In this document: positions 21,211 to 55,534 of the stretch, one piece after another
Position numbering within the stretch: position 1 is the stretch's first letter
How the letters are laid out: each line of letters starts with the position of its first letter
From: Muricea muricata
Lineage: Eukaryota; Cnidaria; Anthozoa; Malacalcyonacea; Plexauridae
DNA: 64,000 nt
Assembly: GCA_963855995.1 (NCBI GenBank)
Contig: OY979730.1
Location: 11,261,300-11,325,299 of the forward strand
Direction: 5' to 3'
Notes under the pieces: generated by a model
What the model saw: only the letters and a program-made list of their open reading frames with translations
What the model was told of the DNA's origin: nothing
Databases searched by the model: none
Made by a program: the position numbers and the translations under genes

Positions 21211-21213
21211 GTT

Positions 21214-21284
21214 GTCTCGAGCGGGATTTGAACTCGTATCTTCGGGTTTCTAGACCGCCGCTCTACCAATTGAGCCATCGTGAC
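21214..21284 (-). repeat. tRNA-like sequence (degenerate; probably SINE- or pseudo-tRNA-derived)
   Basis: Read on the minus strand, the 71 nt segment has a 7 bp acceptor (GTCACGA / TCGAGAC, six pairs), a perfect D arm with 'GGCTCAATTGGTAGAGC' and a T-loop GTTCAAAT. The anticodon stem pairs only in its middle three positions, and the T stem has two A:C mismatches. That much decay argues against a working tRNA. A second A-box-like piece lies at 21357-21402 on the other strand. Confidence 0.55.
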
Positions 21285-21356
21285 AAGGCGAGAGCTAAGT
21301 CGTCACGAAATTATTTCGTCCACCTAAATTCGATAAGATTCGCTACCAATCCCAGT

Positions 21357-29800: not shown

Positions 29801-32133
29801 ATGTCTGAATTAGAGTGAGATGTTTGAATTAGAGTGAGATGTCTGAATTAGAGTCTGATGTCTGAATTAGAGAGAGATGCCTGAATTAGAGAGAGATGCC
29901 TGTATTAGCGAGAGATGCTTGTATTAGAGAGAGATGTCTGTGTTAGACAGAGATGTCTGTATTAGAGAGATATGTCTGAAGTAGGGAGAGATGTCTGAAT
30001 TAGAGAGAGATGTCTGTATTAGAGGGAGAGGTCTGTATTAGAAAGAAGTGGCTGTATTAGAGAGATATGTCTGAAGTAGGGAGAGATGTCTGAATTAGAG
30101 AGAGATGTCTGTATTAGAGGGAGAGGTCTGTATTAGAAAGAAGTGGCTGTATTAGAGAGAGATGTCTGTATTAGACAGAGATGTCTGTATTAGAGAGATA
30201 TGTCTGAAGTAGGGAGAGATGTCTGAATTAGAGAGAGATGTCTGTATTAGAGGGAGAGGTCTGTATTAGAAAGAAGTGGCTGTATTAGAGAGAGATGTCT
30301 GTATTAGAAAGAAGTGGCTGTATTAGAGAGAGATGCTGTTCCATGGCAGAGATTTAATATACTGTGTGTTTGCTCACCAGAGAAGAATTCTTCCCAAGCC
30401 TACAAGAAAAACGAGGAATCAAAAACAGATGAGGCCTCGAAGGTAATTCGAAAAAAAAATAATCAAAATTATCTCTTGTTATGAAACACTGATGTCATTG
30501 ATGACTTCAATTAAAATCCTGCAGCCGAACGTTGACGTCAGTCCATGATGCGATTCTCGAAGATCTGTGTTTTCCAAGCGAAATTGTTGGAAAAAGAATC
30601 CACGTTAAATTGGATGGCTCTAGATTGATTAAAGCGTAAGTGTAGAATCGTTTTCTACTTCATGGATCTGAATGAACATTTTTCTCTGAGAAAATTTTGT
30701 TGATAAAGTACTCACATATATTTGTTTACTTTCAGTTTCCTAGACAAAAGTCAACAAACCAATGTTGAACACAAGGTATTGTGAAGAATTTTCACACTTG
30801 GTTGTTTGTTGCCGTTTCTGTTCTTTGATAAAATTTGTGGCTTATTTTGGAAGGGGCTATGCATATACTGGCTGATAAAGGAGCAAATTTATAAAACTAT
30901 AAAGCATTTAAATCTAATTAATGTTCTTATTACCGCAACAAAATTACTGGCTACTGACTGGTTTAGAGGCGTACAATTATTTTAGTAATTGTACAGCAGT
31001 GCAATTAATGCTTTCAAAACAAAGAAAATGGCGGAAAGATATTTCAACACGCAGGACTGCTTCAGGGGAGTTGAGGCTATAAAGTACCGGATAAAGTACG
31101 AAGAGAAGCTCCAAAATTTTAATTCAAAGAGAAAATATACGTCACGACTACTATTAATCCCAAATTGTACTTGTCATCGCATGACCACCTGTACGGAAAA
31201 AAGTAAATTTTGAGCTTTAATTTTTCTTGTCTGTGATGAAAGAATTGTCGCCCTAGTCTGAATTTTTCGTGACTGATTGCTGTTTTATGAGACGGTTCGC
31301 TGAAGGTATGTTTTAAATTGGCAAAGATTTTTTGGTAAAGAAAAGTGTGGCACTGGGATTTTGTTGGAAAATATCGTTTGATTTGTTTTGAAAACTAATT
31401 TGATTACACGAATTTGAGAAATGATAACACATACTCAGTTTTTATGAAATAACAATCAGGATTAGAAGAGGCTCTTGCTTGGATGTTTTTTGTCCACACA
31501 ACCGACATCTTTTTGACAAGTCATCTATGTCGTTTTAGTAGCTTTCATCCATCAAGCTGACAATGCAGCTGTAAGTGACTAAATTCATATAACCACCCAG
31601 CATTCAATCGACTTCGTATACCTTTGTACTTCTTGTAAAGTTTTGAACTGTAGTTTGTACACGGCAAGTCATCAAGCCGATATCAGGATGCGTTCGCATC
31701 ACTTGCTGTAGCTTGATGATAACACGTCTGCTGCAAGTTGTCAACAGGCTTGACGTTGATTTTCAGGACTTTTTTTATCTACAAGCTTGATTTAAGTTGT
31801 TTCAACAAGTTGTACCAAGTCTGCAAGTATCAATTTCACAGACTTAATGCAACTTGACGAAGGCATTAAGCCAACAGGCTTGAAGGAGCTTAATGGCGAA
31901 CTTGCATCAAGCTGGCGAAATCCACAACTTAAATGCATCAAGTCTGCCGTTTTTCTGGCCGTGTTAAGTGTTGACACAATCTAATTTGTTTTCCTGTTTT
32001 GTCCCTCCCTCCTCTAAGAATTCTTCTCTTTAATTCTGTTCTATCTCATTCATTTCAGCTCGAGACGTTTTCTGGTGTGTACAAAAAACTGACTGGCAAA
32101 GATGTCGTGTTTGAGTTTCCCGCGTACGACTGA
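26844..32133 (+). CDS. RPS7: 40S ribosomal protein S7 (eS7), 8 coding exons, 189 aa
   Basis: eS7 is a small-subunit protein required for pre-rRNA processing. Exons: 26844-26912, 27898-27969, 28158-28235, 28735-28797, 30381-30442, 30525-30635, 30736-30775, 32059-32133. The joined frame gives 189 residues (animal eS7 is about 194). It shows the family blocks '[13 protein letters not shown]', [14 protein letters not shown], '[20 protein letters not shown]', [36 protein letters not shown] and '[20 protein letters not shown]'. The start [12 protein letters not shown] fits the family. A polyadenylation signal AATAAA lies at 32139-32144, within a few bases of the stop. The introns carry snoRNA-like sequences, a minisatellite and family-A repeats. 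Confidence 0.97.
28267..28339 (+). ncRNA. Box C/D snoRNA candidate 1 (SNORD31/snR67-like), RPS7 intron 3
   Basis: Box C GTGATGA (28274-28280), box D' CTGA (28299-28302) overlapping a TGATGA C'-like box, and a terminal CTGA (28330-28333). The flanks GTGGTT / AACTGC can form a short terminal stem with two G-U pairs. The guide before D' reads 'GATGTCGCCCCAGT'; its CGCCCCAG core complements CTGGGGCG, the 28S P-loop stretch targeted by vertebrate SNORD31 and yeast snR67 (from memory). The intronic place inside a ribosomal-protein gene is typical of animal snoRNAs. Confidence 0.7.
28363..28690. repeat. Family-A element, 'GACTTGATGCAAGTTG' subtype
   Basis: Begins 'TTACACAGCCAGAAATATGA' then CAGACTTGATGCAAGTTG. 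The interior has CATCAAGTTG and GATGTGAAAGCATCG blocks; the right end is degenerate near GGTGTAATA. It fills most of the RPS7 intron before the exon at 28735. Confidence 0.75.
28936..29008 (+). ncRNA. Box C/D snoRNA candidate 2 (SNORD31/snR67-like), RPS7 intron 4
   Basis: Nearly a copy of candidate 1: box C GTGATGA 28943-28949, guide 'GATGTCGCCCCAGT', box D' CTGA 28968-28971, terminal box D CTGA 28999-29002, flanks GTGGTT / AACTAC. The similarity extends over about 75 bases and includes some flanking sequence (TTTCTGTAAACGTTGTGG against TTCCTAGAAATATTGTGG), so the two arose by duplication. Confidence 0.7.
29070..30340. repeat. 1.25 kb minisatellite, ~19 bp unit 'TGTCTGAATTAGAGAGAGA'
   Basis: Roughly 65 tandem units varying as TCTGAATTAG / TCTGTATTAG / GCCTGAATTAG, with higher-order duplicated blocks (for example the runs near 29970, 30060 and 30190 are near copies). 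It lies wholly inside RPS7 intron 4, between snoRNA candidate 2 and the exon at 30381. Isolated units precede it at about 28831. Confidence 0.97.
31225..31310 (+). ncRNA. Box C/D snoRNA candidate 3 (diverged SNORD31-like), RPS7 intron 7
   Basis: Box C GTGATGA 31233-31239, guide 'ATTGTCGCCCTAGT' (one C-to-T change against copies 1 and 2, still able to pair by G-U), box D' CTGA 31258-31261, an internal TGACTGATTG block shared with the other copies, and a terminal CTGA 31300-31303. The second half differs and the end stem is weak. It may be a diverged paralogue or a decayed copy. Confidence 0.55.
31660..31975. repeat. Family-A element in RPS7 intron 7
   Basis: Contains 'GATATCAGGATGCGTTCGCA', the hallmark interior of the family, AAGTTGTTTCAACAAGTTG dyads and a right end 'CTGCCGTTTTTCTGGCCGTG'. 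Confidence 0.8.
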
Positions 32134-37777: not shown

Positions 37778-38213
37778 ATAATTTCCGTTCAAAATGTTTA
37801 AACGAAACCTTTCGCTGGACAAGAGGTTATTTGAGAAGAAACCTCATCCAAATTCAGCGAAACCCAACCTGAGTGCAGGCAATCCTCCGGGCGCAGGCAA
37901 ACACCCCGCGAATGCGGGCGAAGAGCACCTAGACGCAGGCAAACCAACCCTAAGTTTCGGCCAACCTGCTGCAGACGTCAGCAAACTACCCTTTACTGCA
38001 GGCAAAGATTGCCCGAACGCAGGCAAATCCGTTGAAGACGCTGTAACTGAGGAGAATTTGGACGTTTTTGATATCGAGGGTGGAAACATGGAACAAAAAC
38101 TCGTTATGCAAAAGGCAATGTCAGTATCGTCGATCTCCAGTGAGAAAGAGATTGACGAAGACCCGACGAGTGTTTCCGATTTGGAACGAAGCGGAAAACG
38201 GAAAAGTAAAATG
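37778..38213 (+). CDS. Probable first coding exon upstream of TRPN (alternative N-terminus or separate gene)
   Basis: A strong acceptor (TTTGTTTTCCTAG) ends at 37777, an ATG follows at 37794, and 140 codons run to a consensus donor (AAAATG|GTAAGT) in phase 0. The product starts MFKRNLSLDKRLFEKK and holds a Gly/Ala/Lys-rich tract with about seven 'AGK..' repeats, then an acidic Ser-rich end (SVSSISSEKEIDEDPTSV). All TRPN introns are also phase 0, so it could splice to TRPN, for example onto an internal acceptor at 40131 (CCGTCTCTAAG). No intermediate exon is obvious in 38214-39960. Whether it belongs to TRPN or to another gene is open. Confidence 0.5.
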
Positions 38214-38264: not shown

Positions 38265-38565
38265 ATAGGTTGAATAAGAGATGTCCTTGCTAGACCTCAA
38301 GGAAGAACAGTTTAGAACTGATAGAGCTATCCAGTGTAAAATAAAGTTAGTTTAGTTTAGGTTCCTCCTGTAGTAACACTGGATCAATAAGCGATGATCC
38401 TTACTGGACCTCTAGGAAAACCAGTTTAGAACTGATAGAGCTATCCAGTATAAATAAAGTTAGTTTAGTTTAGGTTTCCTTCTGTAGTAACACTGGATCA
38501 ATAAGAGATGATCCTTACTGGGCCTCTAGGAAGAACAGTTTAGAACTGATAGAGCTATGTGATTG
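38265..38565. repeat. Family-C tandem array, ~2.5 units of ~114 bp
   Basis: 'TCAATAAGAGATGATCCTTA', TGGACCTCTAGGAA, 'AGTTTAGAACTGATAGAGCT' and AGTTAGTTTAGTTTAGGTT, identical in layout to 8860-9120 and 47955-48475. Confidence 0.9.
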
Positions 38566-39960: not shown

Positions 39961-42900
39961 ATGATGCCAAACAATAAAACGAAACGAGCAGTATCTAAAC
40001 CTGCAGGACGCAAGGGTCAGTCAAATGTTGACCAGTCACAGAGCGACCAACGCGGTTCGAAGTTGTTACAAGCGAGACGAGAGCAGCTTCGATCATCTTC
40101 AATGCCAACTGTAGTTGAATCCGTCTCTAAGGTGGAAGAAAACGGGAAATCGCGGCCGCGTAGCGCCGAGAATAACGTCGATTCGAGAGATGAAAATGTG
40201 AAATTCAAGACCTTGTTGCATTTTATGATGGCCGGGGAATGGACGGGGGCTCTGGGTCGGATGTCTAACTTAGACGAAAAATCCCCAGAGCTTGGCCAGG
40301 CTAATGTAAATATTGATTGTTCATTTTTGAATAACGCAGAAAGAGGTTTAAGTATGTCAATGATGTACATTAAGCGCATCTTGTTGTCTATTGTTTTAGA
40401 AGGAGGAAACCTAAACTAGGTTTAACTCTTGTCTTATATCTGCTGAAACTATCAGTCGGCCAAGGTTTCTGAAACCTAAACTAGACTAACTTTATTTATA
40501 CTGCATAGCTCTATCAGTTCTAAACTGTTCTTCCTAGAGGTCCAGTAAGGATCATCTCTTATTGATACAGTGTTACTATAGGAGAAAAACTAAACTAAAC
40601 TAACTTTATTTACATTGGATAGCTCTATCAGTTCTAAACATTTCGTCCCAGAAAATGCAATAAAGTGAGTGTGATGTATTTTGGTTGACGCTTTTTGTTG
40701 CATTTTCAGGTGAATGGCTCAACTCCTATCATGGTCGCGTGTAAGGAAGGAAAATATGCTCTAGTGGAGAAACTATTAGAAAGAGGAGCTTCTGTATCTG
40801 ATATCGACCTGGTATGTTTACCTTTCGTTAAATCTAGTACGAACTTGCATTATCAGCCACCAATTATAGCTCTTAGCTTCAACAGCCAGGAACGTGCAAA
40901 GTCCGTTGCAGGTTTCTCACCTTGCAGTCATCAAGTCGGTATAGTTGATAACAAATCTACTGCAAGTTTTAAACAGGCTTGATGTAAGTTGATTGTCACG
41001 ACTTTATCCACAAGCTTGGTGCGAGTTGTTTCAACAACTTGTACCAAGTCTGAAGACATCAAGTTACCTGATTTTCACAGACTTGGTGCAACTTGATGAA
41101 GCCAACAGGCTTGATGCAACTTGATCACAAACTTGCCTCAAGCGGTCTTTGCGTGTTCTCTTCGTGTTGTCTGATTTAAAGATATATTTCTTTGAACTAG
41201 AATGGAATGACCCCCCTGCATTACGCCTCGCTCTCTGGTTCGGAATCCACAGTGAAAGTCCTGGTGAAGCAGAAAAGTGAATTGTCACTGACAAGAAACG
41301 TAAGTTTAGACAGAAGCACGAAGATGCTAAACTGTACAACTGGGGCCGGTTGAATCAAAGGCGTTTAGCTTTAACGGCGGATAAGAGAAATTTAAAAATT
41401 TTTACACCTAGTATGGAACTGAAATTATGAGTTTAATAGAACAAATATTTAGTTTTATATATAGTTGTTCTTCTCAGGTCAGATAACTTTAGCTGGTTTG
41501 TTTATACAGCATGCAAACTTGTTTTATATTTTTGACTTACCCACCGTTTAAGCTAAACGCCTTTGATACAACCCGCCCCTGACAAGCAGGGATAGGGATA
41601 TACCCATGTGTTTTCAGTCTGAAGTCATTTAGAGAGATTCGGAAAAGTGTTTAAACAGTTGTGTATTTTGTAAAATAGTATCAGCAATGTTTTGGAGTGC
41701 AATGTGGTGTGTCTAAGTCCAGACTAAAGCCTGGATCACACTAGTCGTAAGAATCGGGTATTTTCTACTTCTCTCGTATGTGAATGAATGTGTGAACAAA
41801 CTAAAGTATAGGACAAATATTAGATTGCTTTTGCAGTGGTATAGAATTCACTCAATCACATCGGCCAGAGGAAGCCATCCCCGATACTTACGACAAGAGG
41901 CAAAAAAGATGGCGGATGTCGATATTACCAGAATGCATTGGGGTCTGAAATCGTCTTGAAGAACAGACAGAAGAAAATTGGTTATTTTCACACTTGTGTT
42001 TAAATTTCAATCCATTAGCTTTGCTTCTTGTCATCTTTTCCCAGGTATTCTTGCTTGATTCTCGCAATGCATTCTGGTATGGTCGACATGTCGCCATCTT
42101 TTTTGTCGCGGTGAACTGCAAGTCGTTTTTCCAGTTTCGAGCGTTGTTTGTTATCGAATTATTTTCATCCAAATCATTATATGTCAACGAGCTCTATCTT
42201 TTACGAGAACGATTGTATTTTGTTCGCTTATAGAACGAAGGACAGACCCCTCTCCATTTGGCGTGCACACGTATCGCAGGCGCAGTTCCAGTTGTAAAAC
42301 TTCTGGTCAAGTCGATAGGAGAGGAAGCGAAACTCATGAAAGACAATGCAAGTGTTGACGATGTGATATAGTCCCCATCTATCTCCTTTTGTTAGCTTTA
42401 TTCAAATCAGGGATCGCTTGTATAAAGAGCGTTTAGCTTAAACGCTGGATAAGAAAAAAATTTAAAAGCGCTCCTATTCATCATGCAAATAATTGAACTT
42501 AAATTTTCTCAACTAAATATGTAGTTCTATGTGTATTTGTTATGTTCCGACCGAAAAGTTTAGTTTGCTTTCAGTCAATAGTTCATTGGCCTATTTGATA
42601 TTTTCGACTTATCCACCGTTTAAGCTAAACGCCTTTTATACAACCGCTCCCACAAGTGTAAATCTGTGTTGGTAACCCCACTGTCTCCCACTTTTGAACT
42701 GCTTGTCGGAAAAATACAGAATTTGTCTCTGGAAAAATGCAGACTTGTTGGTAAATTGATAACAAATTGTTGGTGAATTTACCCAAAAGTATTGATCGGG
42801 TCCGTGGATTGCAAAGTATGTGGAGGAACTCCCTCCGAACGGAATGGTATTGTTATGCCCCTGGTTTAAAGTATTTAACACAACTTGTGGCAAGTTTAGC

Positions 42901-45900
42901 AAAAAAGCCCTCAACAAGTTGTGTTTGCACTGCTTGTCCCAAGCTATCAACAAATTTGGAGCAACTTGCGTAAAGCTTAAGGTGACTTGTTGCAAGGTTG
43001 TCCTAACAACTCTGATATAGACCTGTTGTAGTAAGATTGTCACAAAGCTGACAACACAAAGCTCTGACAATACTGTTTCATCATGACTGTATCAGTCTTG
43101 TTGGAACAACCATGTAACAAGTCAGTCCCATCAAGCCTGTTACAAGTTCTTAACGGCTTGTTCTAAACTTGTTTCAACCAATGGGATCGAGCAGGTGGAA
43201 CATAATTTGTCAGCAGCTTGTGAACAGACTTGTTACAACTTGTAGTAGCCGCTACGTAACATTTTTTTTGTGCTTCTAGGATGGCAACACACCGCTGATG
43301 CTAGCAGTGGAGACTGGAAATCAGCTGGTTGTGCGAGAACTTCTGACAAGCAAAGCTAAAGAACAGTTGAAGATTGTTAAACCAGTGAGTAGGCTACTTT
43401 TGACTGTGAACTTGGTTTCAAGTTTGAAAACTGTTTCGAAGGTTGTTGTTTCAGGAGGTACTGTTATTTTCAGAATTCTGGTGACTCGGCGTTTCATCAT
43501 TGCGCTCGAAAAAAAGACGTTGAAATGGCGCGAATATTGCTTGACGCTGGATCTGCAGTAAATCTTAGGAATGTAAGAATATTGTTGTATTTCTCAGAAC
43601 TTCATTTAAACGAGAGTTGAGAAGTGAGATTTTGTATGAGAGTTCTCTCAACTCTCATGTCCTGGTCAAACGTGAACAAGAGTTGAATGAGAGTTGATGA
43701 GAGTTGACAAGCGAGATTTTGTATGAGAGTTTTCTCTCTAATGTACTGGTCAAACGAGAACAGGATTTCCAAATTATGTGGTTAGCTGTACATTTTCTTT
43801 CTTACAGAACGATGGTCAGACAGCATTTCATATCGCTGCGTATGAGGGTGATGAGGGGATGATTAAACTATTGGGCGCGTCGAACAAGCTGTCAGCAGAC
43901 ATTCAGGACAAGGTAAAGTGTGCCCTGTGGCTTTCTCTTATGAGACTTTTGTGAAAATAATCTTCCAATGCTCTAAACGCTGAGCCTCGTGGGGTTTTCT
44001 CCGGCTACTCTGGTTTCCTCCCACAGGGAGTGTTTACAGGGTGAGTTGAGATTAGCCCCTGACTGATCCTTCCATCGTAGCTGTGCTCCGTGATCAGACA
44101 TGAGTCATAAGCTGGCTGTCAGAGGCGCTCTTAGAAAGCCTTCGACTGGATTAGGTTGAGTTGCGTCCTTCGTAATTCAGCTTAGCCCTCAGCTGCAAGT
44201 AAGGAGGTCAAAGCACGTCTCGACTTTAATTAGCCGCCTTTAAACCCTGGCTCATGACTTGCGGAATTTAACTGATGAAATGCCTTAGATTTGAAGGGTT
44301 TTTTGTTTTAGCATGATCGCACTGCCGTTCATATCGCTGCAGAAAGAGGCTTTTCTGATATCGTGGAATATCTTGTCGACAAAGTTAAAGTAGATGTCAA
44401 TTTTAGAGCAAAGGTGAGATAGATTACCTCCTGAAAACACTAGTCTAAGTTGATTTCTTTTCCAAATGCTGTTTCGTATCCTCCACCAATTCTTTCAATT
44501 CAAACCACTTTTTCCGTTAAACTTTTCCTATATCGTTAGGAATTTTTACCTTTGCTCTTGCGTGTGTAAATTGTATAAAAGTAGGACAATTTTCCATAGA
44601 ATATCTGTCGGAGTGAAACTTACAAAACTAACGATTCAGTTATCCAGTTTCATCATCGTTTTAGTCTGGGGATACTCTTGTTCACATTGCGGCTCAAAAT
44701 GGTCACTCCGAGACCGTTCTTACTTTGTTGAAGAAAGGAGTCCCTCTGCATATGCCAAACAAAGTGAGTTAATGTGTTGCACGCAGTTTTGTACTGTAAC
44801 ACACCAAAAAACGTCACAGACTTATTGCAAATTGCCAATTTTACCAGCTTCTTGCAAGTTGTCAACAAGTTGCAATAAACTTCAATTTCATCAAGTTGCA
44901 ACAAGTCGGTTAAAATCAGGCTTGTTGCAACATGTTTTTTGCCAACTTTTTACAACTTGTTGAAACAATTTGCAGCAAGCCTGTGGATAGCAAGTTTTGA
45001 AAACCAACTTGCAACGACTTGATCAACAGGCCGATATTAAGATGCACGTGTTTGCATGGCCCGCGACAGCTTGTTGGCGACAAGACTGTTGTAAAGTTGT
45101 TGACAAACTTGTTACAAGGTGATTGTCAAAATTTGTTATCCACAGGCTTGCTGCAAGTTATTTCAACAAGTTGTAAGAAGTCTGCAAATGACAACTTGCA
45201 ACAAGCCTGATTTTAACACACTTGTTGCAACTTGATGAAATTGATAAGTTTGTTAAAACTTGCTGTCAAGTTGTAACAAGCCGATGAAATTGATAAATTG
45301 CAACAATTCTGTGGCGTTTTTAGCTGTGTACAAATGTATAAAGTGTTATATTTATTATTCTCAGTCTGGGGAGGTGTCACTTCACGCGGCAGTTCACTGT
45401 GGTCACGTTGGTGTTGTAAAAGCTTTGTTGAACAAAGGAGCTTCAGTAGACACGAAAACCAAGGTAGGATTTTGCAATTTATGATTTGGACATCTCAAAA
45501 ATGTAATATCAAACTGAATGAGGCGATATTTCCTAGGATATGTATACCCCATTGCACATCGCTGTACAACACCGCCAACCAAGAGTAGTGCAGACTCTCC
45601 TAGGGTATGGAGCAAATGTTCACCTCAAGGGAGGAAGTGTAAGTGGATTTTTACCACATGTAGTATTAGTTTGAACTATCTTGTTGGAGATTAAATCAAC
45701 ATCAACATTGTTAAAAGCCAAATGAACGTGTTTTTAAGGGCCAGGCCGCGTAGAGTGATTTTTTAGCAAACGCTTTTGTGTTCTTTATTTTTCATTCTTA
45801 AAAAGCTCGAAGAAACTCCTCTTCACATCGCTGCTCGTATTAAAGATGGTACTGCAGTTGCTGATATGTTATTGAAAAGCGGGGCGAATGTTGATGTTCC

Positions 45901-48900
45901 TCAAGAGGTTTGAATTATCTGCTACAGCTTGTTTCACCTATTCCTTTTAATTCACTTCTTCATTGTAGGCCGCTTTATTTCATTTCACGTCCGTCATCTT
46001 CATTCCACTCTACTTCACTTCAATTTATTTACAGCAGTTTACTGAAACCCATTACACGATCACACATCACATCACATTACACTACATCACACTACATCAC
46101 ATCACATCACACTACATCACACCACATCATATCACACCACATCACACTACATTACATCACATCACATAACATTACATCACACCACATCAGGCCACATTAC
46201 ATCAAACCACATCAGGCCACATGACATCATATCACATCACATCACATTACATCACACCGCTTCACATTTCATCACACGACACTACATCACATCACGCTGT
46301 AACATCGCATCACACCGTAACATCACATCACACCATAACATCACACGACACTACATCACATCACACTATAACATCACATCACACCATAACATCACATTAC
46401 ACAACGCCACATCCCACCACACATTTTATTACATTTCATACTCTCCTTTGTATCATAGAATGGAGAGACATCCCTTCACATTGCTACAAGAAACGACAAC
46501 ATTGCTATGGTTAAGTTGCTGCTCGCCGAGGGTGCAAATGCCGCCAGAAAATCGAGGGTAACATAATAATCAGGCTTTAAACAGCCTTGATGCTTCCAGC
46601 TTTGTTTTTAAAGCATCACCTCAAAGAACTCGGATGTAATCTTTTGCTTCATAGACTGGAGAAATCCCGTTGCATATCGCAATTGAGAAGTCGTTGGAAA
46701 AAATTGTTCTGGTCTTAATCGACCACACATTGACGTCATCACTCAAGGCATCCCATGGCGTGAAATTGATTATGAACTCTCCTAATAAGGTAGGACGTTT
46801 GCTGCTAGAACACGCAAAGCAACAAGAGTATCTTCTTTGAACACCATGTTTTCTTTAGAAAGGAGAGACGCCTCTGCATTATGTTTGCAAGTTAAGAAAC
46901 AACAACGAGATTGGTGAACTTGATTTGAAAACAGCGAAACTTTTGTTGAAGTATGGCGCTGATCCGAACGTGGAAACCGCCGAGGTGAGTGTTGTTTAAG
47001 CTGGAATTTTTAACAATACGTGAAAGTCTAGGATAGTGCATTAGATACAGCTTAACAGGTCTGTTAACATCTTGCAACAAACGTGTTACTCACAAGCCGA
47101 TATCAGGATGTGTTGGCATGGCTTGTGACAGCTTGTTGACGACAAGTCCGTTGCATTTGTCAACAGACTTGTTGAAAAGTTGATTGTCAAAACTTGTTAT
47201 CCACAGGCTTGCTACAAGCTGTTTCAACAAGTTACCATTGTGGTAGTGTTGATTTTCGACCGATTAAATATAAATTGCTGTTTCTGTTAATGTTTCTGTT
47301 ATAATTTCTGTTTCTTCCTCAGCCAAGGGAGACGCCGGTTCACTACTGCTCGAGACATGGCAACAATGAGATCCTTGTCGCCTTATTCAGCGCAGTCTCT
47401 GTTGAAGAAGTGCAAAGACTGGTGAACCAGAAAACAAGGGTGAGTATATCACAAGGTTGAATTAGTTTGATTATTTATTTACTATCATTTTTTCGAACTT
47501 GAAAGCTGAAACATTGGTAGTGAAGTCAAAAGCACACAAAAACATAGGATCTTTCACTACCATTTTCGCTACTTTGTACCCATGCGGTTTCACCATAGCT
47601 TCACCGCTCTTCAAAACCTTCCCAAGCACCCCCACGCGCTCGCTACTTTATTGACTGATCTCTCTATATAACTGTGTTTAAAGCACATAGGGTGCATTAG
47701 GCACGAGGCTGACCTGAAGCGATACAAATGGAATTTGAGGTTTTAAGCGAAGGTTCTTCCTAAAGTCACTACGACTAACTTTACGACGAAGGGCTTTGGC
47801 TTGAAATGTCGAATTTTTTTCTATTTTTATTTAGGATGGGTTGACGCCGTTACTTATTTCTGCAAAAGAAGGAAATTTGGACGTAATCAAATCATTGATG
47901 AGCCGCCAAGCCAGACTGGATGCTTTTGACGAGGTGCGTGATGTAACGAATTAGTTTAGGTTTACACTGGATCATTAAAAGATGATCCTTTCTGGACCTC
48001 TAGAAAGAACAGTTTAGAACTGATAGAGCTATCCAGTATAAATAAAGTTAGTTTAGTTTAGGTTTCCTCGTGTTGTAACACTGGATCAATAAGAGATGAT
48101 CCTTACTGGACCTCTAAGAAGAACAGTTTAGAACTGATAGAGCTACCCAGTATAAATAAAGTTAGTTTAGTTTAGGTTTGTTTCTGTAGTAACACTGGAT
48201 CAATAAGAGATGATCCTTACTGGACCTCTAGGAAGAACAGTTTAGAACTGATAGAGCTACCCAGTATAAATAAAGTTAGTTTAGTTTAGGTTTGTTTCTG
48301 TAGTAACACTGGATCAATAAGAGATGATCCTTACTGGACCTCTAGGAAGAACAGTTTAGAACTGATAGAGCTACCCAGTATAAATAAAGTTAGTTTAGTT
48401 TAGGTTTGTTTCTGTAGTAACACTGGATCAATAAGAGATGATGCTAACTAAGTCTCTTTTAAGAACAATTTAGAAGTCATGTATTTTAATTTCATTTTTT
48501 CTATTTTCCAGAAAGGTAAAACTCCACTTCATCTTTCGTGTGAGCACGGTCACAAAGATGTTGTACATTTCCTGCTCAACTCTAAGGCTTACATCAATGC
48601 GAAAACGAAACTTGGTCTAACTGCTCTGCATCTCGCCGCTCAGAAGGGATATAAAGACATCGTTGAGATGTTAGTTACTTCATTTAATGCCAGTATTGAC
48701 GCTTTATCTCTGGTGAGTTTATATCTGTTAATAGTTTGCAATAAGATAGATACTGTCGTGGTTTGTGTCTGAACTACCTGAAAAAGACATCTTAAACGTG
48801 TTGATCCAGTGTAGGTAATATTCTACAATAAGCTGTCGTGGTTTGTGTCTGAACTACCTGAAAAAGATATCTTAAACGTGGTGGTCTAGTGTAGGTAGTA

Positions 48901-51900
48901 TTCTACAATAAGCTGTCGTGGTTTGTGTCTCAACTAGCTGAAAAAGTCAAAGTAATAGTGTTTACAGGTTGTTCGAAAATCTTTCTCGTTACAGGAAGGC
49001 AAGACGCCACTACATCTGGCTGCCGAAGGTGGAAAATTAGAAGTGTGCAAAATTTTGCTCCATCTCAAATCAGACACTTCAGCAACTGATAATGTATGTT
49101 TTCAATTTCCAACAAAACTCTCAAATATTTCTTTCTTGGAAATTTCTAAATTCCAACTCTATGTTTTTCAGAAAGGAAGAACGCCACTGCATTATGCTGC
49201 GCAGATGGATCATTCTGACGTCATCGAGTTTTTCTTGGAAAACCGTCCTCAGTTAGTGAACCAGGCTAATGCGGTAAGTGACATCATCAGGCTGGATTTG
49301 TACCCCACTTTAGATCAGGTTTAAGGTTTGGATTGAGGTTTCTCTAAGGTTTCCATAATTTCCTGAATGCGTTGACAGAGTGGGCTGAAACTGGCTCCTT
49401 ACTGATCCTTCCATCGCAGCTGCGCTCTGTGATCAGATATTATGAGTCACAAGTGGCTGTCAGAGGCACTCAATTCCTACTTCTCACTCTTACACAACGA
49501 GCCATTAAACGCAAAAGTTACAGCAAGTCTGTTACCATGCAGTCATCAAGCTGATATCAGGATGCGTTCGCAGCGCTTGCTCCGACTTGATGATAGCAAG
49601 TCTGCTGCAAGTTTCTTACAGGCTCTATGCAAGTTGATTGTCAAGACTTTTTATCCACAAACTGTATGCAACAACTTGCAGCAAGTCTGCAAATATATGT
49701 CAAGTTGAATCAAGTCAAATTTTCACAGACTTGATGCAATTTGATGAAGCCAACAGGCTAGATACAACTTTATGACAAACCTGCAGCAAAAAACTTGCAA
49801 TTGCATCAAGTCTGAGACGTTTCTATCTGTGTAGCTTTACGCTATTTAGTCTATGCCTTACACGAACTAAGGTTGCCAGTGTAGGTAGTGCAGTTAATAC
49901 TACACGATGGATATTCTTGGGCTTCACGTGAGGTCATAAATTTCCCTAGGGGTCAACTCTAAATCGACACAGAATAATTATTCACTGTATGTGTTGACCT
50001 TGTGCTTGGCAGAAAATATGTGCAATTTCGTGAGATTCGTTCACTCCAACACAGCATAACCATCAGTACAGTTTGGGTTGACCCCCACTCAGATTTACTG
50101 CAAAATCCCCTAGTGAAACCCAAGAATAGAATTTTTTGCTACCTTGGTACTAACTTCCCGACAAAGGCTTCGCTCAAAATGTCGATTTTCACTTTGTCGT
50201 TTTGAGTATTGAAAGAACCCTATGCCTTTGATGTTCTATGATTATGATATGTTAGTTTTGCGCTCTGATGTGCTTTTAGGAAGGGGAAACGTGTGCCCAC
50301 ATCGCCGCGGCCAAAGGCAGTGTTGCTGTCATCAAAGAACTTTTGAAATTGAAAGACATTCACATGACAGAGAAGTTTACAACAGTAAGATCTCTACTTG
50401 TTTTTCAATGCATTGTCAAAAGCGTTGCGAGTTTTTCATGATAATGCGGTATTTTTGTATTTAGGGCAGCAATTCCACGCCCCTACATCTAGCGGCCAGT
50501 GGTGGTCACGCAGACGTGGTACAAGTGTTGTTGGAGAATGGTGCTGACCCTACACAGATGGATAAGGTAGGATGCCTTGGAATCAAGTCGAGTTGATGAT
50601 GAGTATATGGCAAGGCTATATTTTCCGTATTTTACAACATTTCGTAACAAAACTCTCTTAACTCTTACCGTACTCTTTGTTTGTAATTTAGCATGGCATG
50701 ACAGCGATACATTTAGCAGCTAAGAATGGTCACAACTTAGTCATTGAAATACTGAAAGAGAAAATTCCTTTGGATTATGCAAGTCCTAAGGTAAGAAGCC
50801 ACTCCTTGAAGCCACTCCTTGATGGGTAACATTGTCAAGAGAAAATTGCGTGTCCGTACGGGGCTTGGTGTTCTAAATTTGGTGCCTTCTTTCAGACTGG
50901 TTTGTCAGCCATACACGTCGCCGCACAATACGGACGCACTGAGGTCGTGCGAGAAATATTACGCCAGGCTGATTTTGGAGACCTAAGAAGTGAAGGATCG
51001 AAGTCAAAGAAAGACGAGGAAGTAAGTTGATTGTATTTTTGGCTCACCAAAAAAATTTTTCCTGCGAATATTTAGTCAAGTATGGGGAAAAATTTTGCAA
51101 GCATCAGCATCAGGAATATGCCTAATTTGTAGAAAACAGTCTTAGAAACACACGCAATAAAAATCTTAGAAGGTTTTTCTTTTCTGAAAGCAAATCTTGG
51201 TTTCGCAACAGTGTTCACGGAGTAGACAAGCGAGGTGGCGGACTAAAAAAGGTGACAATTTTGCCAAGAGACAGAAATGAAAATGCTATAGCCGACCCAG
51301 TAAGCGCCTCCTGGAATCACAAGGCAATGTTACTGTTTCTTCTCTTTTACTTCATTGCAGTATGGCTACACTCCACTCCATCTAGCGGCCAGATCTGGCA
51401 ACGATCAAGTTGTTCGATTGCTACTCAATTCCCCTGGCGTCCGAGTCGACACCTCCACTGCGCAAAATGTGAGTGTGTACCACCAGGGTCGTTGCAAGTT
51501 CATTGTCAAAATTTGTTATCCACAGGCTTGCTGTAAGTTGTTTCAACAAGTTGTAACAAGTCTACAAATGACATGTTGAAATAGGCCTGATTTTAACCGA
51601 CTTGATGAAATCGACAAGTTTGTTGCAACTTGTTGACAAGTTGCAGCAAGACGGTGAAATTGACAACTTGCAACAAGTCTGGCGTTTTTCGCTGTGCACA
51701 TCTTTAACATCTTGTGGTTGTTTATTTCCTATACGCAGAGATCGCTTCCTTTGCATTTGGCCTCGAGCAATGGACACGCGAATGTCGTGAGCTTACTGCT
51801 CAGTAAAGTTTCCCATCAAGTCGACACCAAAGATGCCAAGGGCCGCACTGCGTTCCATCTTGCTGCGGCCAGCGGTCACCACAATGTGCTCACGTTGTTA

Positions 51901-54900
51901 CTGGCACAGGGAGCCCACATCGACGCCGAAGATGAGGTAGACGTGTATTTGCATTGGTAATTCCTCGATTATCTTACAGCCGAGCGTGTGTTCTGATGTA
52001 TTCGTATTCTTTTTCAAGGATGGTTGGACAGCACTTCATTTTTCAGCTCATTCTGGCCACCTGCCTGTTGTGAAGCAACTCATCGAATCTGGAACTAACC
52101 TCGTGAAAGAAACTAACGTATGTGTAGTGTATATAGTACGAAATATTAAACAATTATTGAATGAGGTCGAGCAGGATATGAGGAATTATTAAGGCAGAGG
52201 TTTGTGTTATCTCCTCGTATCCTGCGTGAACCGAATTCAATAATTGGTTTCTTATTTTTTGAAAATATTTTAAACTCAGTTTAAACGCTTGCTTTGTAAG
52301 TAAGAAGACACAAGCTGCTAATAATGGAACAGCATGAAATTGTTCGGAAACTTGAATAAGCCAATCAGACTACGAAAAAATATTCTTAAAACAATTGTCA
52401 GATTACAAGGTCAGTAAATATGCGACGAAATGAGTCATAATGTCGTTATATTTGTTTTCGATATACGACGAAATTACTCTTAATGTCGTACATTTATCTT
52501 CAACCCAAATTTGGGCAACTATCAAGCGGATATGACCATTTCACCTTTAGCTCTTAACCAGTCAAAACTCCTGAAATATTTTCAATAAATAATAATATTA
52601 ATTTTCTAAAGATGTCACTCGATGATGGATGACACATTGGTGAATGTTTCTTAATCTCGAGTCCAAATCATACACAGGTCGAAACTCAAGCCGGGAACAG
52701 TTGAGAAAAATTCATCATCAACTATAGGTCTTCTGACAGGAATCGAACCTAAGCCTCTGCGATGCCGGTGCTATGTTGTCACCAATGTTTCATTCCTGCC
52801 TGAGAATCTATGGTTGGTGATGAATTTTTCTCAATGTTTCCGGCTCCAATTTTAACATGTGTATGACTTCCACTCCAGATTAAAACGCATTTACCCTTGG
52901 GTTAACTCAAAATTCGAAGCAAATTTTCCATGAACTCTTTTGTAGACTTGACAATATTTTTTCATTTTTCTCGTTTCAAGTTTTAAAACAAAGGGACATA
53001 TTGACATACCGAAACCAAAACAGTTGGTTAAATTTCAATCCAGGGTTAACGCTAAACCACCTTCGAACTATCGAGTGAAATGCCACGAAATTATAATAAT
53101 TTACCCAAAACAAAATCTGTTTTGTTGTTTAGGATGGCAAGGTCGCTGTATGCTACGCTGCTCATGCCGGTCACGTGTGTGTGGTGCGATATCTACTCAA
53201 TCTTAAGTTTGATGCATCTCACTTACTCATGGACAAAACGGTAGGACTCAACCTGATATTATTTTATTTTTTTTGGGCATGATAAGAGGGGATAGCGGAA
53301 GGAATCTCCGCAAGTCTTGGTAACGGGAGTGGCTGTAATGGAGTTGCCATTTCTTTACCATCTCCAGCTGTTTACGGGACCCCGATTACCTAACAAAATT
53401 GCCACAGATTAGTTGCAAGTTGTAAATTCTACTAGCTCGTTACAACTTGCAAAAAACTTATCAGTTTCATCGAGTTGCAACAGTCAAGCTTGTTGCAGCA
53501 TGTCATTTGCAGACTTGTTACAACTTGTTGAAACAACTTGCAGCAAGCCTGTGGATAACAAGTTTTGACGATCAACTTGTAACAAGTCTGTTGACAACTT
53601 GCAACAGACTTGTCGTCAACAAGCTGTCACAAGCCATGAAAGCGCATCCTGATAACAAATCGGTTTGTTGATAACAAATCTGTTAGCTGTGTAGACCAAA
53701 TATAAAACGATTCATGTAAAATGCTATTGTGGACAATTCTATCAAAGAAGTTGAAATATTAACTTTTATAAAAACACCATTTGCAACAGATAGTTAGTTT
53801 TCATTGCAATAACGTTTACACATACATTTTTAGTTCCTTTTCGACCTCATGGTTTGCGGCAAGGGAAATGGCAATGACTCCATCATGTCCTTTATTCTCC
53901 ATTCGCCCGCTCCATTGTACGCCGCAGTCAAACTCTCGCATCACTACAGAAGCGAATCGACCAAGTTTAAAGAAAGGAGCAAAGACCTAATAGCGGCCGG
54001 GGACGCGTGCGAGGAACTGGCACTAGATATCCTGACCTTGGCGTGCAACAATGATGCGAGCCAGCTGTTGAACGCCATGGATGACAGCGGTAAGCCATTT
54101 CTGGACGTGCTCGTCGAATGTGAACAAAAACATTGCGTTGCGCATACCTCTGTGCAATCGTACTTGGGAAGCAAATGGCGCGCCGGCCGCAACTGGAGGA
54201 TGTCAAAAGTACTGGCAATTTTTTTCGTCGCCTTTATTTTACCTCCAGTTTGGGCGGCGTTGTCGCTGCCGTGGAATAATAACTACAGTAGAGTACCTTT
54301 GGTGAAATTCATATGCCAGCTCATATCTCACTTGTACTTCATGTTGCTTTTTGTATTCATGCTGGTTATACCTTGGGGGAGATCGAGCACGGACTTAATG
54401 CCGGCATGGTATGAAATATTGTTACTGTTTTGGCTCTGCGGTCAGGTACTCACACAGCTCACCGACCCAAAGAACAGCAGAGGTCTCGGTCGGGTACCTT
54501 TGTTTGTCATATGTCTCTCGACATTTGGCATTCTGGTTCATCTCTCCGCGTTTGCTTTCGAGGGCGTCACGCGTGTCAACCTCCTTTACGCGCGCAATCA
54601 ACTTTTTGCGGTCGCCATGTTTTTGACGTTCATACAACTGCTGGATTTTCTCACGTTTCATCACTTGTTCGGTCCTTGGGGAGTCATCATTGGCAACCTA
54701 ATGCAGGACTTGGCTCGGTTCGTCGTCATTCTGCTCATTTTTATCCTCGGTTTTACCGTCCACATTGCTGCGGTGACAAAACCTGGATTTTACGACACCA
54801 TGGGCGAAGATCACTCCACGCATTTGCACAGGGCCGAGTTTGGAAAAGTGCGGGAAAACTTAATCGATATATTTAGGTTGTTGTTTTTCTCGCTGTTTGG

Positions 54901-55534
54901 GTCTGGCAACTCCGAAATATTGGACAAACTTACTGAACGGGACATTCCCTCATTTTCGAGGGTTTTGGTCTATGTGGTGTTTGGGTTGTATTCCCTGATT
55001 ACAATTGTAGTCTTGATCAATTTGCTTATTGCTATGATGAGCGATACTTACCAAAGAATTCAAGCTCAATCGGATTTGGAATGGAAGTTTGGCCGCGCCA
55101 AGTTGATCAGGAAACTGGAACGATCAACCCGCACGCCCGCGCCGCTAAACTTGCTGACGACAGCAGTGACGTATCTGAGGCTCGCCCGCAAGGTGAGGTG
55201 CAGGTGTTGCAGGCCTGACATCATGGAAATTTTACACGAGGAGACGGCGAGCGATCAATTGCCGATGACGAAATTCACGAGCACGAATAGCGTGAGTCCC
55301 GATTTCTCCAGTGGCGTCATCGCCTCTCGTAACAATAGCAACCATAGGATCGAGCACGTTGTGAACTGGGAACGAATCGTGCGCAAGTTTAAAGCTCTGC
55401 GCGGCATGGAGGATAAGGAAGAAATGACGGTACAAGAAGTGATCTCTGTGGATAGCGAGGGACTTAATGAGAAAAGTGTACGCGATATTAAGGAAATGGT
55501 AGAAGGGTTATTGAAAAAGATGAACCCTAGTTGA
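39961..55534 (+). CDS. TRPN1: TRPN (NOMPC) mechanotransduction channel, 29 ankyrin repeats, 29 exons, ~1698 aa
   Basis: TRPN/NOMPC is the ankyrin-spring cation channel of ciliary touch and hearing receptors. Exons: 39961-40305, 40710-40811, 41201-41299, 42234-42347, 43280-43384, 43474-43572, 43808-43912, 44312-44413, 44665-44763, 45365-45463, 45537-45638, 45806-45907, 46459-46557, 46655-46789, 46859-46984, 47323-47439, 47835-47933, 48512-48712, 48995-49093, 49172-49273, 50280-50384, 50465-50566, 50692-50790, 50896-51021, 51361-51468, 51739-51936, 52019-52117, 53133-53240, 53834-55534. All junctions are phase 0; one donor is GC. The order is a Ser/Lys-rich N-terminus with [17 protein letters not shown], 29 ankyrin repeats, a linker, six membrane helices and the TRP helix. 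The start at 39961 follows an in-frame stop at 39940; a longer N-terminus from 37794 is possible. Exact ortholog naming is by domain order. Confidence 0.93.
40430..40645. repeat. Family-C array, reverse orientation, ~2 units
   Basis: Reverse complement of the ~114 bp unit ('TAGCTCTATCAGTTCTAAAC', CCAGTAAGGATCATCTCTTATTGAT), in the first TRPN intron. Confidence 0.85.
40890..41155. repeat. Family-A element in a TRPN intron
   Basis: 'GTTGATAACAAATCTACTGC', GTGCGAGTTGTTTCAACAACTTG and TGATGCAACTTGAT blocks, between the exons ending at 40811 and starting at 41201. Confidence 0.75.
41341..41580. mobile_element. Family-E hairpin MITE, copy 1 (240 bp)
   Basis: The left arm TGGGGCCGGTTGAATCAAAG with GCGTTTAGCTTTAACGG is mirrored by CCGTTTAAGCTAAACGCC and 'TTTGATACAACCCGCCCCT' at the right. 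No ORF. Copy 2 is in the next TRPN intron. Confidence 0.85.
41901..42105. mobile_element. Family-F hairpin MITE, copy 1
   Basis: 'CAAAAAAGATGGCGGATGTC' then GATATTACCAGAATGCATTG is mirrored by 'CAATGCATTCTGGTATGGTC' then GACATGTCGCCATCTTTTTTG. Copy 2 lies at 62651-62880. A looser outer dyad (CGTAAGAATCGGGTA / CCCCGATACTTACG) flanks it on the left, at 41745-41895. Confidence 0.85.
42410..42651. mobile_element. Family-E hairpin MITE, copy 2 (~240 bp)
   Basis: 'GCGTTTAGCTTAAACGCTGG' near the left end and CACCGTTTAAGCTAAACGCC near the right. Same ends and spacing as 41341-41580. Confidence 0.85.
42690..43265. repeat. Family-A palindromic repeat (long or doubled copy)
   Basis: 'AACAAGTTGTGTTTGCACTG', CTTGTTGCAAGGTTGTCC and 'TGTATCAGTCTTGTTGGAAC' match 4205-4565 and 6540-6870. 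It ends just before the acceptor of the exon at 43280. Confidence 0.8.
43600..43770. repeat. Family-D repeat, ~2 units
   Basis: 'CAACTCTCATGTCCTGGTCA', AACAAGAGTTGAATGAGAG and GTTGATGAGAGTTGACAAG, as in the coiled-coil gene introns. Confidence 0.85.
43975..44215. repeat. Dispersed SINE-like repeat ('GGTTTCCTCCCACAGGGA')
   Basis: 'GGGTTTTCTCCGGCTACTC' style sequence followed by 'TGATCCTTCCATCGTAGCTG' and CTGGCTGTCAGAGGCGCTC. The second half recurs at 49380-49490. Related sequence is common in marine invertebrate genomes as far as I recall. Confidence 0.65.
44800..45335. repeat. Family-A element, near full length (~530 bp)
   Basis: The left end 'CACACCAAAAAACGTCACAG' and the right end TCTGTGGCGTTTTTAGCTGTGT are inverted counterparts. 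The interior contains GATATTAAGATGCACGTG and many CAACTTGCAACAAG dyads. It occupies the intron between exons ending at 44763 and starting at 45365. Confidence 0.8.
46055..46432. repeat. (CATCACA)n-type microsatellite, ~380 bp
   Basis: Degenerate 5- and 10-base units such as 'CATCACATCACATTACATCA'. It produces spurious Thr/Ser/His-rich frames on the + strand. It lies in the TRPN intron before 46459. Confidence 0.95.
47060..47240. repeat. Family-A repeat fragment
   Basis: 'CGATATCAGGATGTGTTGGC', GACAGCTTGTTGACGACAAG and ACTTGTTATCCACAGGCTTG, with the typical interior but no clear right end. Confidence 0.75.
47955..48475. repeat. Family-C tandem array, ~4.5 units of ~114 bp
   Basis: Successive units of 'TCAATAAGAGATGATCCTTA' to AGTTTAGGTTTGTTTCTGTAG, the inner ones almost identical. 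It fills the intron between exons ending at 47933 and starting at 48512. Confidence 0.95.
48752..48950. repeat. Short tandem repeat, ~80 bp x 2.4
   Basis: 'CTGTCGTGGTTTGTGTCTGA' recurs at about 48755, 48834 and 48914 with ACTACCTGAAAAAGA and AGTGTAGGTA blocks between. It lies in the short intron before the exon at 48995. Confidence 0.85.
49375..49490. repeat. SINE-like repeat fragment, related to 43975-44215
   Basis: 'TGATCCTTCCATCGCAGCTG' and GTGGCTGTCAGAGGCACTC match the second half of the copy at 43975. Confidence 0.7.
49505..49845. repeat. Family-A element in a TRPN intron
   Basis: 'GATATCAGGATGCGTTCGCA', GACTTGATGATAGCAAGTC and right end TCTGAGACGTTTCTATCTGTGTA. Confidence 0.8.
49846..50279. 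other. Remaining intron sequence, nothing recognised
   Basis: AT-rich intron between the family-A element and the exon at 50280. No repeat or RNA seen. Confidence 0.4.
50605..50672. mobile_element. Family-B MITE remnant
   Basis: 'GCTATATTTTCCGTATTTTA' then CAACATTTCGTAACAAAACTC matches the right arm of the hairpin at 18519-18690. The left arm is absent. Confidence 0.5.
51480..51705. repeat. Family-A element in a TRPN intron
   Basis: 'TTTGTTATCCACAGGCTTGC' to 'CAAGTCTGGCGTTTTTCGCT' GTGC; the left part is truncated near the donor at 51468. Confidence 0.8.
52118..52655. other. Intron sequence, nothing recognised
   Basis: First part of the 1 kb TRPN intron between 52117 and 53133. No coding or structured signal seen. 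Confidence 0.4.
52660..52880. mobile_element. Hairpin element with a tRNA-like core
   Basis: Outer arms 'CATACACAGGTCGAAACTC' / TTTTAACATGTGTATG and inner arms 'TTGAGAAAAATTCATCATCA' / TGGTGATGAATTTTTCTCAA pair over about 55 bases per side with small gaps. The loop, 52730-52785, read on the minus strand contains a tRNA-like GGTGACAAC..GGTTCGATTCCTGTCAG segment (a T-loop/B box). No ORF. A MITE that captured a tRNA-like piece, or a folded SINE, would explain it. Confidence 0.7.
53395..53705. repeat. Family-A element before the last TRPN exon
   Basis: 'TGCCACAGATTAGTTGCAAG' at the left, TTGTTGAAACAACTTGCAGC in the middle, and GCATCCTGATAACAAATC towards the right. Confidence 0.8.
53834..55534 (+). 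other. TRPN channel exon: linker, six membrane helices, pore and TRP helix
   Basis: A single 566-codon exon. The linker begins [11 protein letters not shown] and contains [12 protein letters not shown] and '[20 protein letters not shown]', which match the pre-S1 region of NOMPC. Hydrophobic segments include [17 protein letters not shown], '[19 protein letters not shown]', [34 protein letters not shown] and '[19 protein letters not shown]'. The pore-loop region is '[11 protein letters not shown]' (about residue 1484). S6 ends in the near-invariant [20 protein letters not shown], followed by the TRP helix [13 protein letters not shown]. No intron interrupts it, in contrast to the repeat region. 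An AATAAA polyadenylation signal lies at 55691-55696. Confidence 0.96.

Follow-up and report, generated by a model that had tools for sequence, protein, structure and literature searches.

A cnidarian TRPN gene carries its ankyrin spring on phase-0 exons of whole repeats, a layout shared with an ankyrin gene of the same genome

Introduction

Repeat-protein genes whose exons each span a whole multiple of the repeat form the second class of Street, Rose and Barrick (2006), for which, according to the review PMC4585158, an origin by duplication of intron/exon modules has been proposed. In the mouse Ank3 gene, Table 2 of PMC4449188 gives a length of 99 bp for 14 of the 20 repeat-coding exons, and in 17 of the 20 the first codon is followed directly by GG. 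Heart transcripts of Ank3 have been described that skip exon 16 or exon 18, each encoding a single repeat, although forms that include them are roughly four-fold more abundant. For TRP-N channels, Schuler et al. (2015, PMC4494053) report intron–exon boundaries that are highly divergent across animals, and cite an 18-residue motif as an example of stretches that are identical among orthologs. The same paper gives four TRPN copies for Hydra and two for Nematostella. A count of 26 exons has been listed elsewhere for the TRPN gene of a scallop. No description of a one-repeat-per-exon layout for TRPN was found in the literature listings and the main-text passages that were searched.

Results

The window, that is, the whole 64-kb stretch of DNA that was analyzed, contains a TRPN (NOMPC-type) channel gene on the forward strand (39961–55534). 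The exon model was derived from splice signals and reading frame, and its junctions are predictions from sequence. Among solved structures, the product of the last exon, E28, is matched best by fly NOMPC (PDB code 5vkq; E 1.6e-130), followed by TRPC5 (5.5e-28), and it matches the Pfam family Ion_trans (5.9e-13, 49 bits, with a cut-off of 25). With the full protein as query, a single collinear alignment of 1367 bits to NOMPC 5vkq was obtained (residues 112–1671 to 120–1704). The translation contains the 18-residue motif without a single change, whereas fly NOMPC, as printed in 5vkq, is one letter off. No Pfam family matched the N-terminal exon E0. By these similarities, the gene is an ortholog of the TRPN (NOMPC-type) mechanotransduction channels. 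The alignment of E28 to NOMPC (exon-product residues 1–539) predicts six transmembrane segments, and by orthology the predicted channel would be mechanically gated.

A search of the genome with the channel exon returned one strong match, the next two being TRP-like fragments that are 24–30% identical. TRPN is apparently single-copy in this genome, allowing that a copy with an intron-rich channel half could escape such a search; this differs from the four copies of Hydra and the two of Nematostella (PMC4494053). A single GFP-family match is compatible with a cnidarian, though it is no proof of one.

The sequence-only reading had proposed 27 consecutive exons encoding 29 ankyrin repeats at 40710–53240, and the rebuilt array reproduces this exactly, from the start of E1 to the end of E27 (Table 1). 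Its claim that all introns are in phase 0 also stands, at 28 of 28 introns in the model, those next to the N-terminal and channel exons included; 27 are GT-AG, and one, after E3 (42347), is GC-AG. Every array exon is divisible by three in length and holds a whole number of repeats (27/27 for both), with 25 single-repeat exons and two, E17 and E25, that hold two repeats each, which accounts for 29 repeats in 27 exons. The lengths and starts are less uniform than had been claimed. A length of 99–105 nt is found in 18 exons, but the remaining nine measure 108 (twice), 114, 117, 126 (twice), 135, 198 and 201 nt. Similarly, a common start residue holds for 21 of the 27 exons (20 located by regular expression, E20 by eye), which begin at position 1 (x-G-x-T-P-L-H) in the canonical numbering of the ankyrin repeat, but not for the other six, which start one codon before it (E1, E3, E5, E6 and E21) or one codon after it (E25).

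A repeat HMM, built from the repeats of this gene and those of NOMPC, was run over the six frames of the window and recovered 29 full repeats, each inside a model exon and scoring at least 21.6 bits; the best match outside the TRPN exons reached only 4.9 bits. Because the HMM was trained on these very repeats and on those of NOMPC, only the absence of matches outside the exons counts as independent. With the same HMM, neither strand of the TRPN introns showed any sign of a hidden ankyrin exon or of one that could be used in a mutually exclusive way.

Table 1. Predicted exons of the TRPN gene, in window coordinates
Feature	Position	Strand	Evidence
E0, N-terminal exon with 115 codons, assumed start	39961–40305	+	open frame, donor AAT/gtaaat
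E1, repeat 1	40710–40811	+	splice signals/frame, repeat HMM
E2, repeat 2	41201–41299	+	splice signals/frame, repeat HMM
E3, repeat 3, then GC-AG intron	42234–42347	+	splice signals/frame, repeat HMM
E4, repeat 4	43280–43384	+	splice signals/frame, repeat HMM
E5, repeat 5	43474–43572	+	splice signals/frame, repeat HMM
E6, repeat 6	43808–43912	+	splice signals/frame, repeat HMM
E7, repeat 7	44312–44413	+	splice signals/frame, repeat HMM
E8, repeat 8	44665–44763	+	splice signals/frame, repeat HMM
E9, repeat 9	45365–45463	+	splice signals/frame, repeat HMM
E10, repeat 10	45537–45638	+	splice signals/frame, repeat HMM
E11, repeat 11	45806–45907	+	splice signals/frame, repeat HMM
E12, repeat 12	46459–46557	+	splice signals/frame, repeat HMM
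E13, repeat 13 (long)	46655–46789	+	splice signals/frame, repeat HMM
E14, repeat 14 (long)	46859–46984	+	splice signals/frame, repeat HMM
E15, repeat 15 (long)	47323–47439	+	splice signals/frame, repeat HMM
E16, repeat 16	47835–47933	+	splice signals/frame, repeat HMM
E17, repeats 17 and 18 together	48512–48712	+	splice signals/frame, repeat HMM
E18, repeat 19	48995–49093	+	splice signals/frame, repeat HMM
E19, repeat 20	49172–49273	+	splice signals/frame, repeat HMM
E20, repeat 21	50280–50384	+	splice signals/frame, repeat HMM
E21, repeat 22	50465–50566	+	splice signals/frame, repeat HMM
E22, repeat 23	50692–50790	+	splice signals/frame, repeat HMM
E23, repeat 24 (long)	50896–51021	+	splice signals/frame, repeat HMM
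E24, repeat 25	51361–51468	+	splice signals/frame, repeat HMM
E25, repeats 26 and 27 together	51739–51936	+	splice signals/frame, repeat HMM
E26, repeat 28	52019–52117	+	splice signals/frame, repeat HMM
E27, repeat 29	53133–53240	+	splice signals/frame, repeat HMM
E28, linker, channel core, TRP region, C-terminus and stop, single unbroken exon	53834–55534	+	PDB and Pfam matches

The repeats keep the order of fly NOMPC. For 25 of the 29 (all except repeats 2, 3, 12 and 26), the best match is the NOMPC repeat of the same number; offset 0 is the sole register that stands out, reached in none of 1000 permutations, and repeat lengths correlate with r = 0.96. The NOMPC repeats were delimited by alignment to the TRPN exons of the window, and their number is therefore fixed by the method. 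This conserved order speaks against a recent enlargement of the spring in this lineage through tandem duplication of single exons, as does the count of about 28 repeats in every TRP-N that Schuler et al. could complete (PMC4494053). At the DNA level, matches between ankyrin exons at E<0.1 are merely 13–44 nt long, and no family of direct repeats of at least 40 nt pairs two of these exons. The one observation in favor of recent growth is a slight excess of similarity between neighbors in the array over randomly paired repeats (permutation p 0.0012; 0.0006 in a rerun and 0.0024 after centring), so that some local duplication may have occurred long ago. Recent exon duplication, contradicted by the register test and by the shortness of the DNA matches, was rejected as highly improbable.

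Intron phases were compared with those of other ankyrin-repeat genes, at loci that the analyst chose, non-randomly, from matches in the genome. The comparison covered the window, the stretches of the ankyrin gene, L040 and 16 of the 21 stretches L009–L029; the other five (L022, L023, L025, L026 and L029), each with its repeats in a single open frame, were left out, as were L001–L008. Splice sites of the comparison genes were picked mechanically with a scoring matrix trained on the TRPN introns, so that the TRPN phase-0 score of 46/46 is not independent. The other ankyrin-repeat genes examined mix phases (phase 0 at 9/16, 2/5 and 7/33 sites), lack the one-repeat phase-0 layout and have introns at many positions; the C6 gene is one that we take to be MASK/ANKHD1. 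Since all 28 TRPN introns share one phase while these genes mix phases, chance is not a serious explanation for the uniformity.

TRPN is not alone in having this layout, however, as an ankyrin gene of this genome, located on C11, carries its repeats mostly on one-repeat exons with the same codon cut and the same phase. Its product is collinear with human ankyrin (4rlv; 1–700 to 133–841, E 4e-220), and ZU5 matches follow the repeats (C11:2087130–2088063). Of the 19 listed single-repeat exons, 18 measure 99 nt and the remaining one 102 nt; they are accompanied by a 198-nt exon with two repeats and by a final 135-nt exon whose end is uncertain. Phase 0 is found at 31 of 33 scored splice sites, and position 1 of the HMM at 15 of 17 scored exon starts. 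The exon ends were picked by hand, the end of repeat 24 being unsure, and for repeats 3 and 5 an alternative in-frame donor (81 nt) scores higher than the chosen one. The exon start with one codon and then GG, known from mouse Ank3, is also common in this genome. In a hand-numbered comparison that assumes corresponding repeat numbers, the 22 boundaries before repeats 3–24 carry introns at 21 positions in the C11 gene and at 18 in mouse Ank3, of which 17 are shared, and the union covers 22 of 22. As every boundary bears an intron in at least one of the species, the double-repeat exons look like intron losses.

No common register was detected between the TRPN and ankyrin arrays (p 0.107), nor between NOMPC and ankyrin (p 0.199). 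In best-of-8 scores, TRPN repeats reach 52.9 against the ankyrin pool, as compared with 48.2 and 43.9 against the only other pools that were large enough, whereas the means are nearly equal (36.9 for ankyrin and 36.4 for the nearer of the others). A greater closeness to ankyrin repeats is no more than suggestive, because the means barely differ and because exon edges delimited the ankyrin repeats, whereas the HMM delimited the others.

In a different account, the array came first, and every repeat later received its own intron, always at the same codon, because all repeats carry the same proto-splice site. A strict MAG/R site is present at 3 of 26 TRPN and 5 of 17 ankyrin intron boundaries (one of the latter joins a donor to a non-adjacent acceptor, two exons being missing from the list), as opposed to none of 34 intronless boundaries in other genes. 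The site is nevertheless scarce even at TRPN introns, and an AG ahead of an intron may reflect splicing and not cause insertion. The other ankyrin-repeat genes of the genome, moreover, have introns at many positions and phases. Parallel insertion is also costly, requiring hits within one codon in 27 exons and then again in ankyrin, and we regard it as unlikely.

The arithmetic of exon lengths and phases bears out the claim that skipping could stay in frame at almost every junction, and does so for all 27 ankyrin exons; in TRPN, such skipping would be possible. The layout could have been kept for splicing, with cells skipping exons to obtain springs of different length or stiffness. Divisibility by three between phase-0 introns in 27 of 27 exons would fit such a role, as would the skipping of exons 16 and 18 in mouse Ank3 and the unusually weak splice sites of E11, whose summed score is the lowest among the 27. 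Against it, the number of repeats in TRPN is described as nearly invariant, at about one superhelical turn (PMC4494053), so shorter springs should often fail, and the HMM detected no alternative ankyrin exon in the introns. Retention for splicing seems quite improbable to us. With this layout, changes of spring length through splicing can be looked for one exon at a time, E11 being the first candidate.

Discussion

The explanation that we consider probable is that of an old exon module, comprising one repeat of about 99 nt with phase 0 on both sides and the cut at repeat position 1. Arrays would first have been built by duplication of such one-repeat exons, before the split from the fly and mouse lineage, and the layout would have been retained ever since, with the double-repeat exons E17 and E25 as later intron losses. 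Duplication of one-repeat exons is the likely original mechanism of growth, and a layout that ankyrin has, and that the other ankyrin-repeat genes compared lack, leans toward an origin by duplication of intron/exon modules, with parallel insertion as a less likely alternative. The TRPN protein is presumed to act like its fly counterpart, its repeat superhelix pulling on linker and pore, and the exon layout probably has no present role beyond preserving the frame when an exon is skipped or lost.

Between the duplication and the long retention that the sequence-only reading had offered as alternatives, recent duplication failed on the NOMPC order and the short DNA matches, while retention is supported for ankyrin, the closest comparable array, by the 17 introns shared with mouse Ank3. 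In TRPN itself, long retention is what we infer, and the divergent boundaries described by Schuler et al. (PMC4494053) count against extending it to other TRPN genes. The presence of the layout in ankyrin genes of this genome and of mouse makes it look like a very old pattern and not a recent invention.

More tentatively, and with some doubt, a single exon module may underlie both the TRPN spring and the ankyrin adaptor, having been multiplied into two arrays, in which case the spring would be a product of exon shuffling; one array would have been linked, with a phase-0 intron at the junction, to a single-exon TRP channel core. Schuler et al. propose instead that the spring grew from repeats already present in the ancestral TRP channel (PMC4494053).

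That one genome uses an identical exon layout for a touch channel's gating spring and for the repeats of an ankyrin helps to place the layout in time, and suggests a concrete way in which exons could have given rise to long ankyrin springs. The layout in TRPN is less surprising because a vertebrate ankyrin gene was already known to have it, together with skipping of single-repeat exons.

This TRPN resembles Drosophila NOMPC in the order of the 29 repeats, their nearly equal lengths, the linker, the channel core and the C-terminal region, a comparison made at the level of the protein. With the ankyrin genes ANK1-3, represented by mouse Ank3 (PMC4449188), it shares mostly one 99-nt phase-0 exon per repeat, the cut codon ahead of T-P-L-H and the presence of some two-repeat exons. 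Unlike the TRPN channel, ankyrin continues after 24 repeats into ZU5, UPA and death domains (PMC5135030). With exons that are all whole repeats, the TRPN array resembles the second class of Street, Rose and Barrick (2006; review PMC4585158).

A TRPN gene with an undivided channel half

The window lies at 11261300-11325299 of contig C15 in the 453-Mb genome. A gene of 29 coding exons on the forward strand was rebuilt from reading frame and splice signals (N-terminal exon E0, ankyrin exons E1-E27 and channel exon E28), with a predicted protein of 1698 residues. Residues 112-1671 match residues 120-1704 of Drosophila NOMPC (PDB code 5vkq) in a single alignment of 1367 bits; E28 alone matches NOMPC at 1.6e-130, the next channel being TRPC5 at 5.5e-28. 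The E28 product contains [18 protein letters not shown], which Schuler et al. (PMC4494053) give as an example of motifs identical among their TRP-N orthologs, and from which 5vkq as printed differs by one letter. Judged by its predicted protein, the gene at 39961-55534 is TRPN. By orthology with NOMPC, the repeat superhelix would serve as tether and spring, pulling on the linker to open the pore.

The entire channel half (566 codons) is uncut, while the repeat half occupies 27 exons. Possible explanations are that introns were lost from the 3' end, or that the array was fused to a channel core lying on one exon beforehand. The open frame upstream of E0 could be an alternative first exon; a Pfam search with it returned no match. 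Elsewhere in the window, the SNORD31 / snoU31b matches may mark a snoRNA host gene, and Pfam searches on three of the large open frames gave one weak match, DUF4164, below the cut-off.

Features of the window (positions in the window)
Feature	Position	Strand	Remarks
Several large open frames	2335-12802	+	coiled-coil-rich by eye
tRNA-Ser	21211-21285	-	anticodon AGA
SNORD31 / snoU31b	28267-28339, 28939-29005, 31226-31296	+	four Rfam matches, three places
Open frame upstream of E0	37794-38213		ends in good phase-0 donor AAAATG|gtaagt
Minisatellite, 114-nt unit	38284-38557		upstream copy
E0, N-terminal exon	39961-40305	+	start codon assumed
Minisatellite, same unit	40472-40652		reversed; intron after E0
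E1-E27, ankyrin exons (27)	40710-53240	+	from frame and splice signals
GC donor	42348-42349		after E3
Degenerate CATCA/CACAT satellite	46008-46402		much of intron before E12
Minisatellite, same unit	47964-48407		intron after E16
Intron after E18	49094-49171		78 nt, divisible by 3, no in-frame stop
E28, linker, channel core and C-terminus	53834-55534	+	one long exon

Exon layout of the ankyrin spring

The sequence-only reading had described 27 exons encoding 29 ankyrin repeats, separated by phase-0 introns throughout, and both the exon reconstruction and a scan of the entire window with a repeat HMM in six frames agree. Each of the 28 introns is in phase 0 (27 GT-AG and one GC-AG), and 25 exons carry one repeat each, with two in E17 and E25. 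The scan recovered the 29 repeats; elsewhere in the window its scores stay at or below 4.9 bits, and the introns yielded no alternative ankyrin exon. The further claim that every exon begins at the same residue holds for 21/27, which start at repeat position 1 (x-G-x-T-P-L-H); five start one codon earlier and one a codon later. Lengths of 99-105 nt, ascribed to most exons, apply to 18/27, the other nine lying outside this range. The description of the layout is thus right with small corrections. The short intron after E18, if retained, would add 26 residues in frame between repeats 19 and 20.

In-frame skipping, proposed for almost every junction, is arithmetically possible for each of the 27 ankyrin exons. 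Two exons of mouse Ank3, 16 (repeat 18) and 18 (repeat 21), are each present in some heart transcripts and skipped in others, the including forms being about four-fold commoner (PMC4449188). Functional short TRPN springs are less likely, because Schuler et al. describe a near-constant TRP-N repeat number and argue for a one-turn superhelix. E11 has the weakest splice signals (leave-one-out score sum 4.5, median 16.4), and is the prime place to seek exon skipping.

Age of the repeat order

Growth of the array by exon duplication was one of the two earlier proposals; if recent, it would predict neighbours that are near copies. None are found, DNA matches between exons at E<0.1 being only 13-44 nt long, and recent growth is not supported. 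Every TRPN repeat was scored against every NOMPC repeat; the window's exons guided the alignment that delimited the latter, which fixes how many there are but leaves the best match free. The best match lies at the repeat's own number for 25/29 repeats (misses 2, 3, 12 and 26), and for 25/29 in the reverse direction. Mean scores are 76.9 on the diagonal and 31.7 off it, and register offset 0 alone stands out, equalled by 0/1000 permutations. Repeat lengths correlate at 0.96, a fit that extends to the long repeats 13-15 and 24. From these alignments, the present repeat order predates the split of this lineage from the fly lineage. Neighbouring TRPN repeats resemble each other slightly more than random pairs do (p 0.0012 in one run and 0.0006 in a second, and 0.0024 once centred; p 0.075 and 0.128 in NOMPC), perhaps as a vestige of old local duplication or through contacts between neighbours.

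The same layout in ankyrin

The ankyrin gene of this genome was found on contig C11 through its ZU5 domains, and its identity was confirmed by a collinear match of residues 1-700 to 133-841 of human ankyrin (4rlv). Its exon list comprises 19 single-repeat exons (18 of 99 nt, one of 102 nt), cut at an identical place and in phase 0 throughout, with repeats 22 and 23 on a common 198-nt exon; exon ends were chosen by hand, an inner same-phase donor (81 nt) scores higher in repeats 3 and 5, and where repeat 24 ends is uncertain. When the splice scores are trained solely on TRPN intron bases, 31/33 scored sites are phase 0, and 15/17 exons start at position 1. TRPN and ankyrin thus have this exon layout in common. 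No common register between the two arrays was found (p 0.107), and any joint exon module therefore multiplied separately, or its order has since been lost. The proto-splice site MAG|R occurs at 3/26 intron-bearing boundaries in TRPN, 5/17 in ankyrin (one of the 17 a mixed pair) and 0/34 intronless boundaries.

Among comparison stretches picked by hand from the genome's ankyrin hits, with five set aside whose repeats occupy a single open frame each, phase 0 was found at 2/5 sites in two TRP-like genes, at 7/33 in nine further stretches and at 9/16 in a many-exon gene on contig C6, which we take to be MASK-like. Other arrays, on contig C3 (e.g., G000:C3:42712513-42715371) and elsewhere, lie in single long open frames of at least 1180 codons, the opposite layout to TRPN.

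Table 2 of PMC4449188 lists 20 repeat-coding exons for mouse Ank3, 16 with a single repeat (14 of 99 bp) and four with two (repeats 5-6, 10-11, 15-16 and 19-20). At the 22 boundaries before repeats 3-24, numbered by hand through the 4rlv alignment and assumed to correspond, introns are present at 21 here (missing before repeat 23) and at 18 in mouse (missing before 6, 11, 16 and 20); 17 are common, four occur here only and one in mouse only, the union covering 22/22. A simple reading is an ancestral ankyrin array with an intron at every repeat boundary, followed by scattered losses. E17 and E25 of TRPN would, by analogy, be fused exons. Long retention of the layout, the other earlier proposal, is thus favoured for ankyrin by the 17 common introns, but according to Schuler et al. 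the exon boundaries of TRP-N diverge strongly from one animal to another, an argument against universal retention in TRPN. For scallop TRPN a listing gives an exon count only, 26, which is close to the number here. Most likely, the layout would be a record of the array's making, kept for want of pressure toward loss. In mouse Ank3, 17/20 repeat exons in that table begin with one codon and then GG, a start likewise common in this genome.
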